Positions 28,892-47,773 of a stretch of DNA of 51,276 nt are shown piece after piece; the first letter of the stretch is position 1; each line of letters begins with the position of its first letter. Made by a program: the position numbers and the translations under genes. The notes below the pieces were generated by a model. That model did no database searches. It was not told the DNA's origin and saw only the letters and a program-made list of their open reading frames with translations. Origin of the DNA: a virus; IMG/VR virus record IMGVR_UViG_3300030107_000818, positions 1-51,276 of that record. One strand, 5' to 3'.

Positions 28892-29084
28892 AGTATTACT
28901 GACCAGAGAAAACAAAATAGTGACAGAACTTAGTATGCTTCCAGAGAATGAAGTTGATAATGTGTTTCCAATTTGTGAGAAAGAAATAATTAAAAATATT
29001 ATTAGAAACGCAAAGACTAAGTTAGACCCTCTACATAAGTTTTTAGAAAGAGAAGTTAATGCTTTAGTAACAAATGAAGTTTGA
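28857..29084 (+). CDS. Hypothetical protein (75 aa)
   Basis: Starts inside the nrdB end. Reads MSQKEANLISFKVLLTRENK, then acidic helices. No motif is recognised. Overlaps the following membrane-protein gene by 11 nt. Confidence 0.5.
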   Translation: MSQKEANLISFKVLLTRENKIVTELSMLPENEVDNVFPICEKEIIKNIIRNAKTKLDPLHKFLEREVNALVTNEV

Positions 29085-29364
29085 TTTAGAAGAATTAAAA
29101 AATTCCAAAAGGATATTTAAGTCGGCTACTCCGAAAGGAGATATGTCTTGGTATGTTAAATGGATATCAAGTTTTATAATTGTAACTGCTATGTCTTTAC
29201 GAGGCGTAGAAGGTATGCAATTATATGATTTAAGTTTATCTATTATAGGAGTATCAGGTTGGTTGTTCGTAGGATTACTTTGGAAAGACAGGGCATTAAT
29301 AATATTAAATGCAGTTGGTCTAGCTTTTTTAATAAAGAATCTTATTACTGCAATATTTTCTTAA
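29074..29364 (+). CDS. Small membrane protein (96 aa), DUF6552-like
   Basis: A basic soluble N-terminus (residues 1-26) is followed by MSWYVKWISSFIIVTAMSLR and two more hydrophobic helices (about 54-71 and 76-94). This Met-Ser-Trp-Tyr-Val-Lys-Trp pattern recurs in marine phage proteins. Function is unknown. Last gene of the rightward arm. Confidence 0.65.
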   Translation: MKFDLEELKNSKRIFKSATPKGDMSWYVKWISSFIIVTAMSLRGVEGMQLYDLSLSIIGVSGWLFVGLLWKDRALIILNAVGLAFLIKNLITAIFS

Positions 29365-29472
29365 TTTTTTAAAAATTGACCTCACACAATCTCGTGTAAG
29401 ACATTCTTTTAATGTTAGTAATGATATCCTTTGGATTTTTAATAAAAGTTCTTAGAGAGCCTCTGAGTAGCT
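29365..29472. other. Convergence of the two transcription arms
   Basis: About 108 bp between the last + gene and the last - gene. AATTTTT/AAAAATT lies just after the + stop. On the minus strand AGAGC-TACTCAGAG-GCTCT (29474-29456) overlaps the cyclase stop and is followed by ACTTTTATT, a possible weak terminator. No strong bidirectional terminator is evident. Confidence 0.4.
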
Positions 29473-31281
29473 CTACGAGGATTTAGCCTTATTTTGAGGG
29501 AAATATATGGTAATTGGCTCTGATTTACCCTTGACCATAATACTATCTATCTTTTCGTAATCAAAAACATCACCCGCTAGTTCTTTAGTGTACTCAGAAA
29601 TAATAATCTTCCATTGTTTGTAATCATTTCTACCAGCAGTTGCTTCAAGTCTAGCTGATAAATTAACTGCATCACCTACTACTGAGTAATCAAACCTAGT
29701 TTCACTTCCCATATTCCCCACAATACAAATTCCGGAGTTCACTCCAGTCCCTACATTGATAGGCGGTAAGTCTAATCCTTGTTCTTTAAATTGTTTATTT
29801 AGTTCTACTGTTGCTTGTTCTATTTCTATCGCAGATTTAATAGCTAACTCTGCATGGTTCTTACAAGGGAGAGGTGCATTCCAAAATGCCATAATACAAT
29901 CGCCCATATACTTATCTATGGTTCCACCATTAGCAAGGATAATTTTTGTCATCTTATCTAAGTAAGTATTGATAAGTTCTACTAGACCTTCAGGGTCATC
30001 ATTATTCTTAAATACTTCTGAGACAGGAGTAAAGCCCATAATGTCAGTAAACAAGAACGTCATCTCCTTTCTTTCACCACCTAGCTTAAGAAGCTCTGGA
30101 TTCTTTTGTAGCATAGCTACCATGTCTGGAGATAGATAAGTTCCAAATTGTTTTTTAATCTGTTGTCTAAGTTTGAACTGAGTTCTAAAGTTTAAATAGA
30201 ACTGTTGAGAAGCTATAACAAACATACTTATCAAACTCCAAGTAACATCTATTAGATATCCTATAGAAATAAAGTAATATCCTAAGTAGGCTACACCGGA
30301 CATTGCAGTTCCTGCTAATGCTATACCCCAAGTAAGTCCAAAGTAACTGACAACAAAAGCTACCAACAAGACTGAAGTGCATAATAATAATAGTTCAACA
30401 AACAATCTATAGTCTGGTATCTGAGGTGATTCAATTAAAATACTTTCAGCAAGAGCCGCTTGAATCTTGTGAGGTTCTAATAAGCCCTTTGGTGTAGCTA
30501 GTTGAGGCATTACTCCTGCTGCAGTTACTCCTACAAATACAAACTTATCTTTAACATCCATTTCTTTTAGTGTAGTTTGTGGAGTATCTACCCAACTTAT
30601 CCATTTTCTACCCATACTATCTGTATTTATTTCTGGCAGACCTCTGACTCTTATTTGTTCTATTCCATTTTCATTTGTTTTTATTTGATAGGTTGAAGCA
30701 TCTACTAAAGTTTTTAATACTTCAGTACCAAAAGCAGCCACCCAACCATCAGGTGTTTGTTGTAATAAAGGTAATCTTCTAACAAGGTTATCTACATCTA
30801 CTGGAGCAGATACCGCACCTTGAGAAGCAGAACTTTGTAGTTCGGGAATGTTTTGTAAAAAGCCTGGAGCTTTAGGTAAGACTACATCTGGACCAAGTAT
30901 AACTGTACCATGTGTCTTTGGGTATTCTCCATTATCAAATTCAGGCATAGCTAAGATACTAGGTGAATAACTTAGGGCTGTACTAAAATCTTTATCGCCA
31001 CCAAATCTATCTTCTTGAGGAAACAGTATAACCCAACCAACTCCAATAGCTCCGTTGTTTAATAAATCAATTTGAATTTGAGCAAGGTCTTGTCGAGGAA
31101 AAGGATAACCACCTCTTTCTTGTACATCTTCTTCTGTTATATTAAGAATAACAAAATGTCCAGAAGGCTCTGGAGTTTCTACAAAGGCATCAAAGGTTTT
31201 TAATCTTAGTATTTCTAAGGGTACAAAATTAAAAAGTAAAGGTACGATTAGTAGGGCTAGTAAAGGTATTGACCACTTCAT
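29473..31281 (-). CDS. CHASE2-domain adenylate/guanylate cyclase, class III (602 aa)
   Basis: An N-terminal membrane helix (about 3-20) leads into a CHASE2 sensor domain (about 25-285) in the periplasm. Three membrane helices (about 293-312, 315-335, 338-357) are followed by a class III cyclase domain (about 405-590). Metal ligands D413 (FTDIMGFT) and D461 (MGDCIMAFWNAP), base-selecting K457 and D531 (RFDYSVVGD), and N540 and R544 (AVNLSARLE) are all present, so it should be active. The Lys/Asp pair favours ATP, giving cAMP. One base separates it from the FecR gene. A second-messenger enzyme in a phage is unusual. Confidence 0.93.
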   Translation of the reverse strand: MKWSIPLLALLIVPLLFNFVPLEILRLKTFDAFVETPEPSGHFVILNITEEDVQERGGYPFPRQDLAQIQIDLLNNGAIGVGWVILFPQEDRFGGDKDFSTALSYSPSILAMPEFDNGEYPKTHGTVILGPDVVLPKAPGFLQNIPELQSSASQGAVSAPVDVDNLVRRLPLLQQTPDGWVAAFGTEVLKTLVDASTYQIKTNENGIEQIRVRGLPEINTDSMGRKWISWVDTPQTTLKEMDVKDKFVFVGVTAAGVMPQLATPKGLLEPHKIQAALAESILIESPQIPDYRLFVELLLLCTSVLLVAFVVSYFGLTWGIALAGTAMSGVAYLGYYFISIGYLIDVTWSLISMFVIASQQFYLNFRTQFKLRQQIKKQFGTYLSPDMVAMLQKNPELLKLGGERKEMTFLFTDIMGFTPVSEVFKNNDDPEGLVELINTYLDKMTKIILANGGTIDKYMGDCIMAFWNAPLPCKNHAELAIKSAIEIEQATVELNKQFKEQGLDLPPINVGTGVNSGICIVGNMGSETRFDYSVVGDAVNLSARLEATAGRNDYKQWKIIISEYTKELAGDVFDYEKIDSIMVKGKSEPITIYFPQNKAKSS

Positions 31282-31282
31282 A

Positions 31283-32395
31283 TTAACTGCTCTGTTTAAT
31301 TGTTATCTTAGAAGAGCTACCACCATTAACAATAATCTGTGTACTTTTACCGTTCTGTACAAGTATGACTGTATACGAGGCTGATTTATCTAAATCAATT
31401 CTTACAGTATCTTCTAAGGCTTTGTAGAAAGTTAAAGTATTATCAGTAGTAAAAGTATTGATTTGTGTTTCAGCATCAAAACCAAATGAAGTTCCTTTTA
31501 AATCTAAGTCAGCTTGTAATAAAGTTTCTGTTTGGTCAAGCTCATTGATATCTTCAATAATATTTAAAAGGTCTTCAAGAAAATTTACATCAAGATAATT
31601 TATATCAAGCTCATTAAACTCTAAATCATCTTGAGCTAAATAGTCTACATCTAAGTCTTCAAATTCTAAGTAGTCTACATCTAATATATTATTACTACTG
31701 GTATCTGTTGTTGTTTCAGTTAAACTTATTTCTTCTTTAGGTGGATTAACAATTAACATATTGTCAATTAACTGAGTAGTAATATCCAGTATAACTGGCT
31801 TAGATGGTTCAGTTTCAAACATAGAAACTGTAGTAGCTTGGAAGGGCTGATTAAGTACTACCTCACCTGCAGCAGTAGCTACAAGTATTTCTCCACTTGG
31901 AGTACCATCATCTTTAGGTAGTAATATGATAAGAGATTCACCTAGTTCATTTACTGTCAGAGTAAAGTCTGTACCACGAATTGACACATTAGCACTTGGT
32001 GTCTTAATAGCAATGTTTTCTTTATTGATGTTGTTTAGTTTACCAGTAATAAACCTAGCAGTTCCACTAGTAAAATTAAGAGCCATCCTAGATTTAGATG
32101 GATTAGGGTCATAAATAAATTCATCTATGAGCAATTCAGAATGCTCGGTCAGACGAACTTGAGTATTATTAAGAAAGGTAATACCCATCCTACCGTTAGA
32201 AGTTTCTACATTGTCAAAACTTTCTATACCAAAAGATAAGGCAGCATCATAAGGTGCATGTTCCCTAACGACCCTGCCATTACCTTTAAGTTCTGTAATA
32301 TTTCCTATGCTAACATCCGACTGCTGTTCCGCCGTCATCTTGTATGACGCAAACGCTGCCGTTATCACCAGAAGAAATAATCTTGAGCCAATCAT
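31283..32395 (-). CDS. Secreted FecR-domain protein (370 aa)
   Basis: Signal peptide (MIGSRLFLLVITAAFASYK). FecR domain (about 35-165): FDNVETSNGRMGITFLNNTQ, EHSELLIDEFIYDP, LNFTSGTARFITGK, and IKTPSANVSIRGTDF, the family's hallmark RGTDF. A Leu/Asp/Tyr-rich repetitive stretch (EFEDLDVDYL, NELDINYLDVNFL) follows at about 250-290, then a beta-rich end. FecR proteins are periplasmic signal transducers; in bacteria FecR-domain genes often sit beside CHASE2 cyclases, as here. Its start lies inside the curlin gene; M1 is preferred because it begins a signal peptide, though no strong ribosome site is seen. Confidence 0.88.
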   Translation of the reverse strand: MIGSRLFLLVITAAFASYKMTAEQQSDVSIGNITELKGNGRVVREHAPYDAALSFGIESFDNVETSNGRMGITFLNNTQVRLTEHSELLIDEFIYDPNPSKSRMALNFTSGTARFITGKLNNINKENIAIKTPSANVSIRGTDFTLTVNELGESLIILLPKDDGTPSGEILVATAAGEVVLNQPFQATTVSMFETEPSKPVILDITTQLIDNMLIVNPPKEEISLTETTTDTSSNNILDVDYLEFEDLDVDYLAQDDLEFNELDINYLDVNFLEDLLNIIEDINELDQTETLLQADLDLKGTSFGFDAETQINTFTTDNTLTFYKALEDTVRIDLDKSASYTVILVQNGKSTQIIVNGGSSSKITIKQSS

Positions 32396-33029
32396 TATTT
32401 AATGTACTTGCCTGTGTAATATTAAAAGTTCGTGAATCACCTGTCTGGTCTAGGTAAAAGTACCCGCCAGCATATCCACTACCGTCAAAAGTTACATTGT
32501 TGCTATCACCATCTATATCAACCCACGAAGTGCCACCATCATAATTGATGTCGAAATCCAATGTATTTGAACTCCCATTTATAACCCAGTCCAAGTCAGT
32601 ATTACTAGCCATAGAACTTGTCCCTACATTTAATGTAAAGTCATTGCTATCACCAGTAGCCTGAACATTGAAGTCTGAGCTATCAGCACCATAGGTATTA
32701 GTTGGGTCAACTTGAATAGTAAATTCATTTGAACTACCATCAAAATTAAAATAGCCTGTAATACTATCTCCTAAGATATCACCATAGAATAAGTTATTAT
32801 CTCCTATTTGGTTAATATCTAGAGTTAGTGTAGAGCCATCTAAGTCTAATGCAGTTAGGTTTCCTGCTTGAGAATTTAAACCACCGATGATGTTTCCACC
32901 ACCAAGCTGTTCTAAATCTATGTTAGCAGTATCGCCTGATTGGTCTATATAGATTTCATTATCATCCCCGTATATCAATGCACTCGTCAGCATCAACATC
33001 ACAAGGCTTATTAATTTCAAAGTTTTCAT
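32310..33029 (-). CDS. Secreted curlin-repeat protein, CsgA/CsgB-like (239 aa)
   Basis: Signal peptide (MKTLKLISLVMLMLTSALIYG). Repeats of the curlin type Q-x-G-x-x-x-N/A...Q: IYIDQSGDTANIDLEQLGG, TLDINQIGDNNLFYG, NVQATGDSNDFTLN, ININGSSN-like and YLDQTGDSRTFNITQAS, spaced about 20-40 residues, Asp/Asn/Ser/Gly rich and poor in charge-positive residues. The last residues hold two Cys (VCVIQ...VGC). The family forms extracellular amyloid after export through CsgG. Overlaps csgG by 68 nt and the FecR gene by 86 nt. Nucleator (CsgB) or subunit (CsgA) role cannot be told. Confidence 0.78.
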   Translation of the reverse strand: MKTLKLISLVMLMLTSALIYGDDNEIYIDQSGDTANIDLEQLGGGNIIGGLNSQAGNLTALDLDGSTLTLDINQIGDNNLFYGDILGDSITGYFNFDGSSNEFTIQVDPTNTYGADSSDFNVQATGDSNDFTLNVGTSSMASNTDLDWVINGSSNTLDFDINYDGGTSWVDIDGDSNNVTFDGSGYAGGYFYLDQTGDSRTFNITQASTLNNDWLKIISSGDNGSVCVIQDDGGTAVGC

Positions 33030-33822
33030 ATTTCCAATACCCTCTATTTATTCCTATTTTTATTAAATTTAATACGCCAGCTTCTATTGCCTTTTGCAAA
33101 GCTATAGAACCAGCTTCGTTCTCAGCGATGCCTCCTTCTATTTCTACGAGTTCAGTACCCATTTCAATAAAACGAAAAACATCTTGAGAAACACTTGTTG
33201 ATAAAATATTTTTAGAAACCGTAGTCTCCATCAACACTTCACCAGTAGACACAGAAACTATTCGTAATGAAATAGTAACTACATCTTCTCTATACTGAGT
33301 ACTATTACCTATGCCTAGATACCTAGCACCCAATCCCCCAGTTTCAATATTGGTATCATAAGATAAGACACCGCCCTGTATTATAAGACCAGCAAATAAT
33401 AAAGGTTGAAGTTTCCTATCCTCCTCAAAGTTTTCTCTGGTTGACCTAATAAGTTGTCGTTCTTTAGTAAGATTATCTAATCCTACTCTTTCAACAACTC
33501 TAAAAAATTGTCCATTAGCAGCATGTTTTAAAGCCCTAATGAGTAAAGCTTCAGGAGCTTGTGTGACTGCTGTGCTAAACATAGCAAAGCTACTGTTGCT
33601 TTTTCTTTGTCCTGTTAAATCTGAAAAGCTATTTGGATAGACAGCGATAATTGGTTTAAGTTCTGCAGGCGGTAAGTTTGCTAATTCTTCTGATTGTAAA
33701 TCTAAAACTTGAGCAGGTTTCCTGTCTTGTGATATAACTAAATCTTCGTTCTTCGCTATTACTGCACAACTAGAAAGTAAAATCGCCAATAGGCAAACTG
33801 ATAACTGTTGTATTCCCGTCAC
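32962..33822 (-). CDS. csgG: Curli secretion pore lipoprotein CsgG (286 aa)
   Basis: Lipoprotein signal with lipobox LSSC (Cys19). CsgG hallmarks: IIAVYPNSFSDLTGQRK, SSFAMFSTAVTQAPEALLI, GGLGARYLGIGNSTQYREDVV, ISLRIVSVSTGEVLMETTVSK and SVSQDVFRFIEMGTELVEIE. E. coli CsgG (277 aa) forms a nine-subunit outer-membrane channel that exports CsgA. The length and the transmembrane and constriction segments look intact. Located between csgF and the curlin gene, overlapping both. Outer-membrane delivery requires a host Lol system. Confidence 0.95.
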   Translation of the reverse strand: MTGIQQLSVCLLAILLSSCAVIAKNEDLVISQDRKPAQVLDLQSEELANLPPAELKPIIAVYPNSFSDLTGQRKSNSSFAMFSTAVTQAPEALLIRALKHAANGQFFRVVERVGLDNLTKERQLIRSTRENFEEDRKLQPLLFAGLIIQGGVLSYDTNIETGGLGARYLGIGNSTQYREDVVTISLRIVSVSTGEVLMETTVSKNILSTSVSQDVFRFIEMGTELVEIEGGIAENEAGSIALQKAIEAGVLNLIKIGINRGYWKYENFEINKPCDVDADECIDIRG

Positions 33823-34219
33823 TATCTGTAATCCTTAATGTTATAATTCCGTCGACAACTTCAAATTCTATGGTGTTGCCTTCTAATTCTAATATCCCGC
33901 TATCGCTAGGGGTTTCTCCAAATAAATTTTCTACTAATTGTCTAGATAGTTGTGCATAAATTCTAGACTCTAAATTTCTTACAAATCTTGCAAGTGTTGT
34001 GTTCTCTGCGTCTCTTTCTATTTGTTCTTGTAAAGCTTTTACTTCTTCTTTAATTGTCATCTTACGCATGTGTTCTTGATTCTCAATCGTAAGATAATGT
34101 GCTGAAGTTCCTATACCGCTAAAGCTAGGGCTTTTAAATTTATGTACCATTTCATCGGCATCAGCAAAGCCGCTAACACCTAGTACCAAGATTATAAATA
34201 TTGTACTTAGTATTTTCAT
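33770..34219 (-). CDS. csgF: Curli assembly factor CsgF (149 aa)
   Basis: ATG 34219 follows GAGGAAATAATAGAA and begins a signal peptide (MKILSTIFIILVLGVSGFAD); an upstream in-frame codon lies inside the 95-aa gene. Mature N-terminus DEMVHKFKSPSFSGIG matches the CsgF peptide F-x-x-P-x-F-G/S-G that enters the CsgG channel. The C-terminal part (IYAQLSRQLVENLFG, then EFEVVDGIITLRITDSDGN and TTVISLPIGDFTF) matches the strand end of CsgF. In E. coli CsgF couples secretion to nucleation. It overlaps csgG by 53 nt. Confidence 0.88.
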   Translation of the reverse strand: MKILSTIFIILVLGVSGFADADEMVHKFKSPSFSGIGTSAHYLTIENQEHMRKMTIKEEVKALQEQIERDAENTTLARFVRNLESRIYAQLSRQLVENLFGETPSDSGILELEGNTIEFEVVDGIITLRITDSDGNTTVISLPIGDFTF

Positions 34220-34232
34220 TTCTATTATTTCC

Positions 34233-34520
34233 TCAATCTTTTCGTTGGTCTTTTTTTCCATCTGCTCTTGCTAACTTATCTACATCTACGGGAACGCCCA
34301 TAGCGGTTCTACACATTGTATCTATTCTTATTATGTCATTATCTATTTGTCTTACTCTATCTATTAAAGCTACTATCATGCCGTGTTGTGCATCTAATTT
34401 CTTATGAACGTCGGCGATTAGGTGGTTAAATAGTTTCCACACTAAAAACCCTGCGGCAACAGCAAAGGCTGCTGGAATACCAACAGTTTCTAATAACTTC
34501 ATCCACTGAGTTGTATTCAT
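34233..34520 (-). CDS. Membrane-anchored coiled-coil protein (95 aa), lysis-associated?
   Basis: Residues about 10-30 are one membrane helix (VGIPAAFAVAAGFLVWKLF), followed by a helix with KKLDAQHGMIVALIDRVRQI and a charged tail. The topology resembles an inner-membrane spanin subunit or accessory holin. Located between the holin-like gene and csgF. Function is inferred from topology only. Confidence 0.5.
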   Translation of the reverse strand: MNTTQWMKLLETVGIPAAFAVAAGFLVWKLFNHLIADVHKKLDAQHGMIVALIDRVRQIDNDIIRIDTMCRTAMGVPVDVDKLARADGKKDQRKD

Positions 34521-34521
34521 A

Positions 34522-34965
34522 TTATTTTCCTTTTGCTAAACTACCACCAAAGTACATGCCAATAATAGCTGATACTAGGTTAGTATCTAACTGAGTTATT
34601 ACCAAGCCCTCGAAAGTTATCCATTCAAATATTTCTCTGCCTTCTGTAAAAAACATAAAGCCCGGATTCCACTGTGTATACCCTACTGTTACTAATACAT
34701 CTGGATAGTACACAGCAACTAGTTTAGGAAATACAACAATAGCAAACACAGAACTTAAAGCTATAATTCTTCTAGTCCAAGCAAAACCTTTATCTTTTTG
34801 TCCGGCTTCAATAGATTGCTTTCTAGCTTTCATATCAAACTCACCACGAGTTATAAGAAGCTTTTCATTTTCTGCTTTAGCCTTACGACTTTCAGCCCAG
34901 ATACTCATTACTCCGCCAAGAATTGTCGAGGCTAACATAGTAATTATTTCAAACGGAAAGCCCAT
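34522..34965 (-). CDS. Holin-like 3-TM protein (147 aa)
   Basis: N-terminal helix (IITMLASTILGGVMSIW), then a charged coil with LLITRGEFDMKARKQ, two C-terminal membrane helices (IIALSSVFAIVVFPKLVAVY and LVSAIIGMYFGGSLA). This order matches the GTA_holin_3TM group. A holin would make inner-membrane holes at lysis. Its start overlaps the stop of the preceding 49-aa gene. Confidence 0.6.
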   Translation of the reverse strand: MGFPFEIITMLASTILGGVMSIWAESRKAKAENEKLLITRGEFDMKARKQSIEAGQKDKGFAWTRRIIALSSVFAIVVFPKLVAVYYPDVLVTVGYTQWNPGFMFFTEGREIFEWITFEGLVITQLDTNLVSAIIGMYFGGSLAKGK

Positions 34966-47074: not shown

Positions 47075-47773
47075 TTATTCTTCTTCTATTATATCCCAAC
47101 AATTTAAGTTGGAAGCTATTGTTCTTCTTTCTCCTTTCCCTTTAAATGGGTACACCATGTGTTGTAACCAAGAAGGAAATACTAATAGTTTACCTACCTC
47201 TGGTGTCATTACAAATGACTGTGGTGGTCTTAGTCTTTCTGAATCTAAAACTGAGTTCATTCCGTATTGAAATGATATACAGCCATCACTATGTCCAGAT
47301 TCGTTATACAGCGAATATGTAGGTGTGTTAGCTTCTGCTTTAGCTCCTATTTGTTCTGGAACTTTAGTCCAAGCAGTAGTGGATATTCCCATTACTGTTT
47401 TAGTGCCATGGTCATGTATGGGATTATAGTCTCCATCATAACTATGAACTGACCAAGTTTCATCTATCATTACTTGTTTAGGATTCTTAAGTTTTGTCCC
47501 AGCTCCTGAACTAGCAAAATAATTTATATAATCAGCTCCTAAGTTACAAACAAACTTGTTATACTCAATCATTCTTTCATCTTCATGGTCTAATAAAAGC
47601 TGTTCGCCTTTATGTATTTGTCCAACCAATGTATGTTTTAAAGATTGTCTATCTTTCTTTTCTTTATACTCATCCATGTAATCGTTTACAGAATCAATCA
47701 TACTTTGAGGCATGGTTGTTTCTAAAACAAACACAGACGGCATCACATGCATCTGAAAAGTCTGTTCTGTCAT
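47075..47773 (-). CDS. 2OG-Fe(II) oxygenase-like protein (232 aa)
   Basis: The iron-binding H-x-D...H triad fits IHDHG (HDH at about residue 125) and FPSWLQHMVYPF (distal His), followed by the 2OG-binding Arg in GERRTIASNLN. The order W...Y-x-GDYNPIHDH...PS-W-L-x-H-x-V-x-P-F...R-x-x-x-x-x-N is the 2OG-Fe(II)_5-like oxygenase fold found in many marine phages near tail genes. Substrate is unknown; a tail protein, cell-envelope component or small molecule are all possible. Confidence 0.7.
   Translation of the reverse strand: MTEQTFQMHVMPSVFVLETTMPQSMIDSVNDYMDEYKEKKDRQSLKHTLVGQIHKGEQLLLDHEDERMIEYNKFVCNLGADYINYFASSGAGTKLKNPKQVMIDETWSVHSYDGDYNPIHDHGTKTVMGISTTAWTKVPEQIGAKAEANTPTYSLYNESGHSDGCISFQYGMNSVLDSERLRPPQSFVMTPEVGKLLVFPSWLQHMVYPFKGKGERRTIASNLNCWDIIEEE

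Follow-up and report, generated by a model that had tools for sequence, protein, structure and literature searches.

How a phage genome comes to encode the core of a curli secretion system next to a periplasmic sensor and a nucleotide cyclase, and what such a combination would do during infection, are the questions raised by positions 29473-34219, on the minus strand, of the window, i.e., the stretch of 51,276 nucleotides analyzed here from a 52.7-kb viral contig (IMG/VR record IMGVR_UViG_3300030107_000818). An earlier reading of the letters without database searches (the sequence-only reading) had treated this combination as apparently new. It had in fact already been published by Wittmers et al. 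(2022; PMC9599517), who reported CsgF, CsgG, CsgA/B, FecR, and adenylate cyclase as a single module from SAR11 myophages and from podophages of the HTVC023P type, and it also occurs in the cultured phages HTVC008M and Melnitz. As far as the searched literature extends, mostly without subscription journals, the obligate sixth gene p95, the apparent exchange of the cyclase output domain, the gap at the receiver of the signal, and a further carrier lineage are new.

Layout and inheritance of the module

Five genes claimed to overlap or nearly touch were all confirmed at the stated place. In the order of the minus strand they are csgF (33770..34219; Pfam CsgF, 4e-17; PHROG 35372), for a secreted CsgG-capping chaperone; csgG (32962..33822; Pfam CsgG, 5.6e-50; GTG start), for an outer-membrane lipoprotein pore; a gene for a curlin-like secreted protein with degenerate repeats and a predicted beta-solenoid (32310..33029; weak Curlin_rpt match and AlphaFold2 model); a gene for a FecR-domain periplasmic protein (31283..32395; Pfam FecR, 7.3e-11; fold match to PupR); and a gene for a CHASE2 sensor joined to a class III nucleotide cyclase (29473..31281; CHASE2, 2.9e-27; Guanylate_cyc, 1.4e-18). 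The matches of CsgG, CsgF, CHASE2, Guanylate_cyc, and FecR all exceeded the curated Pfam cut-offs. Overlaps of 53 nt (csgF/csgG), 68 nt (csgG/curlin), and 86 nt (curlin/FecR) are followed by a gap of 1 nt between FecR and the cyclase. For csgF, the ATG at 34219 yields a signal peptide, the mechanical open reading frame beginning at 34261. While the list of five genes thus stood, it had overlooked a sixth, p95 (34233..34520, minus strand), which always precedes csgF and encodes, by hydropathy, a small inner-membrane protein.

A hairpin of 10 pairs with a T-run (29379..29402, minus strand; tail CAATTTTTAA), found in the terminator scan as a consensus match only, lies just 3' of the cyclase gene and probably marks the end of the late transcript. 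Convergent with this end of the module, and following the ribonucleotide reductase genes, is a plus-strand gene for a DUF6552 membrane protein (29074-29364; Pfam, 1.5e-19). Immediately upstream of p95, positions 34522-34965 encode a membrane protein of 147 aa which, since it is retained in the closest relatives only, belongs to the phage lineage rather than to the module. A 2OG-Fe(II) oxygenase (47075-47773; Pfam, 3.4e-14) is located among the late genes.

The sequence-only reading had treated the cluster as a unit, and the unit held when marine viral contigs were searched for the gene order. Loci were collected from IMG/VR with CsgG, FecR, or the cyclase as the anchor: csgG was followed by curlin and FecR in all 115 distinct cases, FecR had csgG ahead of it in 100 of 100 cases, and 99 of 105 distinct FecRs were followed by the cyclase on the same strand. 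p95 was found upstream of csgF/csgG in each of the 143 loci with sufficient upstream sequence (100/100 distinct CsgG proteins), and the order p95-csgF-csgG-curlin-FecR was kept in every testable locus. The cyclase gene was adjacent but inverted in four contigs examined (L165/L246, L244, L245, and L249). All six genes were under purifying selection, with dN/dS values of 0.05-0.29 wherever at least a few changes were available for the calculation; such values, together with the identical gene order shared by over 100 distinct relatives, indicated that the module is not a chance assembly. An assembly artefact was ruled out by independent contigs having the same order and CsgG proteins 93-98% identical. 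With 263 relatives of CsgG and over 590 of FecR returned by the searches, marine viral contigs that carry the module number at least several hundred, and the phage lineages with it now come to at least three.

The pore, its putative cargo, and the sensor pair

The CsgG family profile matched the solved E. coli CsgG with an E-value of 7e-65, and the protein contains the block GGLGARYLGIG. The CsgG lipobox (LSSC) and the CsgG-binding N-terminal motif of CsgF (FKSPSFSG), both said to be retained, were found to be present. Two of the three E. coli CsgG residues that we take to form the constriction appear to be replaced in the profile alignment. As to the reported absence of CsgE, CsgC, and CsgD, the CsgE part was borne out, its profile giving no match in the whole record; the CsgH profile likewise found nothing there, in a weak search in which CsgH controls also stayed below the cut-off. 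Because alphaproteobacterial curli regions also lack CsgE, along with CsgC and CsgD (PMC9599517), the missing CsgE does not disqualify the module from curli membership.

The curlin assignment fared unevenly in profile searches. The window protein fell below the Curlin_rpt cut-off (E 0.013; 15.8 bits against 20.7 bits), whereas half of its family, 13 of 26 members, matched the profile, the best at 8.6e-6. Across 35 relatives the residues Q30, G32, Q41, G43, and N46, in the arrangement Q-x-G ... Q-x-G-x-x-N, were invariant, and the AlphaFold2 model (pLDDT 83.3, pTM 0.79) consisted of stacked short strands; a Foldseek search with this model listed many beta-helix proteins, none of them significant. 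We judge the protein to be a divergent curlin. It has two Q-x-G-x-x-N repeats versus 4-18 in the alphaproteobacterial curlins examined, and with so few canonical repeats and a score below the Pfam cut-off it may not form amyloid.

The sixth protein, p95 (95 aa), was characterized by hydropathy and family alignment as having one hydrophobic helix at about residues 9-27, a coiled-coil-like region, and a conserved [DE]GKxDxRKD tail. Of 50,697 phage records, only those of HTVC008M and the Melnitz strains contained it, and these phages are also the ones with the module csgG. A 1.5-kb record labelled as Salmonella phage also gives a csgG match. The gene at this position was called a histidine kinase by Wittmers et al. 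(2022; PMC9599517), an identity that was rejected on the basis of its size, its single membrane helix, and the lack of any histidine-kinase profile match in 19 family members; we take the published name to be a wrong label rather than the sign of a different module. Weak YvrJ matches were given by 8 of the 19 members, and weak XhlA profile matches were also seen in the family. We read p95 as a predicted small inner-membrane partner of the module.

The FecR-domain protein is composed of a FecR beta domain, an acidic disordered linker, a helix, and a small C-terminal beta domain, modelled at moderate confidence, that ends in ITIKQ. Its model matched PupR and other FecR-type anti-sigma periplasmic domains (E 1e-4). 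The cytoplasmic sigma-binding part is absent, the N-terminus being a signal-like helix only, and neither FecI nor FecA lies beside the gene, the neighbors being curlin and the cyclase. A C-terminal strand [ILV]x[ILV]xQ was common to all 143 distinct full-length relatives and to none of 10 bacterial FecR proteins near CHASE2 proteins, several of which were cut by the stretch fetched; endings of this type also occurred in 51 of 889 unrelated ORFs. Homology of this tail to curlin was rejected, as hhalign against the phage curlin profile returned a probability of 1.4%, and the resemblance is a lead only.

The cyclase has three predicted membrane helices and all of the catalytic residues (D413, K457, D461, S533, N540, and R544), so that its active site is, to judge by these residues, intact. 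Among its relatives the metal-binding Asp and the substrate Lys were conserved in 47 of 47, the Asn in 45, and the Arg in 46, and the Lys paired with Ser or Thr in the substrate pocket, from which cAMP is the presumed product, was kept in all but 1-2 of the 47. In the cyclase of Melnitz (L083, 7917-9968), the transition-state Asn is replaced by Ser (GDSVSTAAR) and the gene is retained; this enzyme may be weak or inactive. The catalytic domain also matches Pycsar cyclase (PycC) profiles (E 6.9e-23). The module as a Pycsar immunity system was rejected, no cNMP-binding domain being found in the record.

The two halves of the cyclase differ in history. Measured against the window protein, the sensor and catalytic halves show identities of 61% and 92%, respectively, in one relative (L034), of 79% and 44% in another (L009), and of 33% and 64% in HTVC008M. 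Two catalytic types account for 16 and 126 of 154 distinct proteins. Because of these discordant histories, the output domain appears to have been exchanged by recombination while the CHASE2 sensor stayed with the module.

Carriers, host, and bacterial counterparts

The large terminase of the window is 63-67% identical to those of the Pelagibacter phages HTVC103P, 104P, and 115P, and 19 proteins are shared with HTVC115P as against one with HTVC023P and two with 023Pt_psg01. Since the published podophage carriers are of the HTVC023P type, the present carrier represents, by its protein content, a further lineage of the HTVC103P/115P type. Neither csgG nor the module was found in its cultured relatives HTVC103P, 104P, and 115P; in HTVC115P, an Hsp20 gene and small genes lie between the reductase and the late genes.

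By relatedness to Pelagibacter phages only, the host is likely SAR11. No cNMP-binding domain was detected in the phage record, and 58 of 60 host-family genomes likewise gave none; the likely host family was defined as that of one bin titled Candidatus Pelagibacter, and its assignment rests on that title. The domain was found in 10 of 14 control genomes. One of the two positive host-family genomes, a 1.6-Mb bin, contains a phage contig with the module as well. Matches to the class III cyclase and CsgG occurred in two genomes of the family only, both of them on phage-module contigs. A presumed SAR11-family genome (L161, G101:C1) has a CHASE2 protein of its own with a FecR-domain gene nearby and no class III cyclase match. 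The supposed link of the module to cyclic-nucleotide signalling accordingly gained from the intact active site and lost from the scarcity of cNMP-binding domains: no receiver for the proposed signalling is known from the likely host family, where the usual CRP-type route seems unlikely.

Regarding its relation to known systems, the module has the same genes in the same order as that of Wittmers et al. (2022), in which the short gene called HK is followed by CsgF, CsgG, CsgA/B, FecR, and adenylate cyclase. It differs from the published module in its HTVC103P/115P-type carrier, its single curlin gene, and an upstream gene without kinase signature; CHASE2, present in the window cyclase, is not mentioned in that report (PMC9599517). 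HTVC008M (KC465899) and Melnitz (MZ577097) likewise contain p95-like, csgF, csgG, curlin, FecR, and cyclase genes but, unlike the window, with two genes for p95-like proteins and an additional curlin gene, and the window cyclase is 43% identical to that of HTVC008M and 32% identical to that of the Methylophilales phage Melnitz.

Alphaproteobacterial curli operons share the CsgF-CsgG-curlin core without CsgE or CsgD (PMC9599517). In all five true alphaproteobacterial csgFG operons examined, FecR, CHASE2, and p95 were absent within about 9 kb on either side, whereas the module has all three; this agrees with the published statement that FecR and the cyclase are not found in bacterial curli operons. 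On the other hand, 10 of 20 alphaproteobacterial loci with a CHASE2 protein had a FecR gene no more than about 4 kb away, and a periplasmic FecR-domain protein also stands beside a CHASE2 membrane sensor in the Burkholderia BiofilmReg operon, which is unlike the module in having a LysM-FecR, a histidine-kinase output, and a response regulator and no curli genes (PMC5192318). Because of these bacterial examples, FecR with CHASE2 is, as far as gene neighborhoods tell, a recurrent sensor pair. The module looks to have been assembled from two bacterial parts, the curli core and the FecR-CHASE2 pair, with the addition of p95. A bacterial source of the whole module was rejected, as 7 of 9 bacterial or archaeal genome matches were the phage module itself in marine bins. 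Contigs with the phage module (L087-L093, L108) had been binned as Maricaulis, Sphingobacteriales, Rhodobacteraceae, Flavobacteriaceae, and Pelagibacter, and "bacterial" curli genes of marine genome bins may consequently be phage contigs, a source of false curli records.

Possible roles of the module

Six genes in fixed order under purifying selection, with their predicted signal sequences, membrane helices, and evidently intact cyclase site, are the ground on which any functional account has to be built. The account that we favor, with roughly an even chance of being right, is curli-type surface export combined with a periplasmic sensor of export or of the envelope, p95 being an obligate partner. 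In this self-contained late phage module, CsgG and CsgF would provide an exit pore of the curli type (type VIII) across the infected cell's outer membrane, through which the curlin-like beta-solenoid would pass to the cell surface; the periplasmic FecR would monitor export or the envelope and feed the inner-membrane CHASE2 cyclase, with p95 as the obligate membrane partner; and the net effect would be a change of the infected-cell surface leading to adhesion, aggregation, or exclusion of rival phages. Cell clumping, superinfection exclusion, and aid to exit, the roles put forward in the sequence-only reading, are candidate outcomes. Coupling of FecR to CHASE2, and any to CsgG, is putative and suggested by gene association. 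A similar geometry is known from Sinorhizobium, whose CHASE2 cyclases answer a signal taken via an outer-membrane beta-barrel (PMC13001267). The weak curlin, the absence of CsgE, the replaced constriction residues, the lack of a cNMP receiver, and the lack of a significant Foldseek match all weigh against this account, as does the observation that Melnitz-infected cultures showed no clumping (PMC9004378).

A lysis or exit pore, as proposed for Melnitz (PMC9004378), would make CsgG-CsgF a gated, pinholin- or secretin-like channel whose opening is timed by the sensor and cyclase, with curlin serving as a plug or being a relic and p95 acting like a holin. The position of the module at the late-transcript end, before the terminator-like hairpin, would suit this role, as would the YvrJ and XhlA matches of p95 if read as holin-like. 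However, CsgG in the outer membrane could not depolarize the inner membrane as holins do, selection on curlin as strong as that on the pore and its presence in 115 of 115 cases argue against a relic, and the cultured phages HTVC103P, 104P, and 115P of the same lineage do without the module; we therefore regard a lysis pore as rather unlikely. Import of siderophores, vitamins, or other large molecules during infection, with FecR reporting iron or ligand status, has also been suggested (PMC9599517, PMC7029224) and would account for the FecR-type domain. It is made improbable by the export cap CsgF and curlin being kept in every testable module, by the lack of a TonB-dependent receptor in the module, and by the company of FecR, which is a CHASE2 cyclase and not FecA and FecI.

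The cyclase might instead serve in conflict between phages or between phage and host, where the cyclic nucleotide would act as a decoy or competitor for cyclic-nucleotide immunity or leave through the CsgG pore as an extracellular signal. Such a role would fit with the lack of a CRP-type receiver in the likely host or the phage, with the PycC profile match, and with an output domain swapped between two divergent types beside a constant sensor, as is often seen in conflict genes. PycC models, however, recognize class III cyclases generally, the module contains no Pycsar effector, and both cyclase types keep the adenylate pattern, so we give the conflict role little credence. Equally speculative is a full phage envelope relay without a CRP-type host reader, in which the curlin-strand-like tail of FecR would report export to the cyclase and p95 would serve as adaptor or receiver, while the exchange of catalytic halves would reflect selection for a different output between infected cells or against rivals.

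With curli-type surface export retained as the favored reading, the questions that follow concern the role of p95, the export of curlin, and the task of a cyclase in a host family mostly without cNMP-binding domains, and the published histidine kinase label is itself put in question by the p95 result. Given its presence in at least several hundred contigs and at least three lineages, the function of the module, whatever its nature, would be a frequent component of SAR11-type phage infection.
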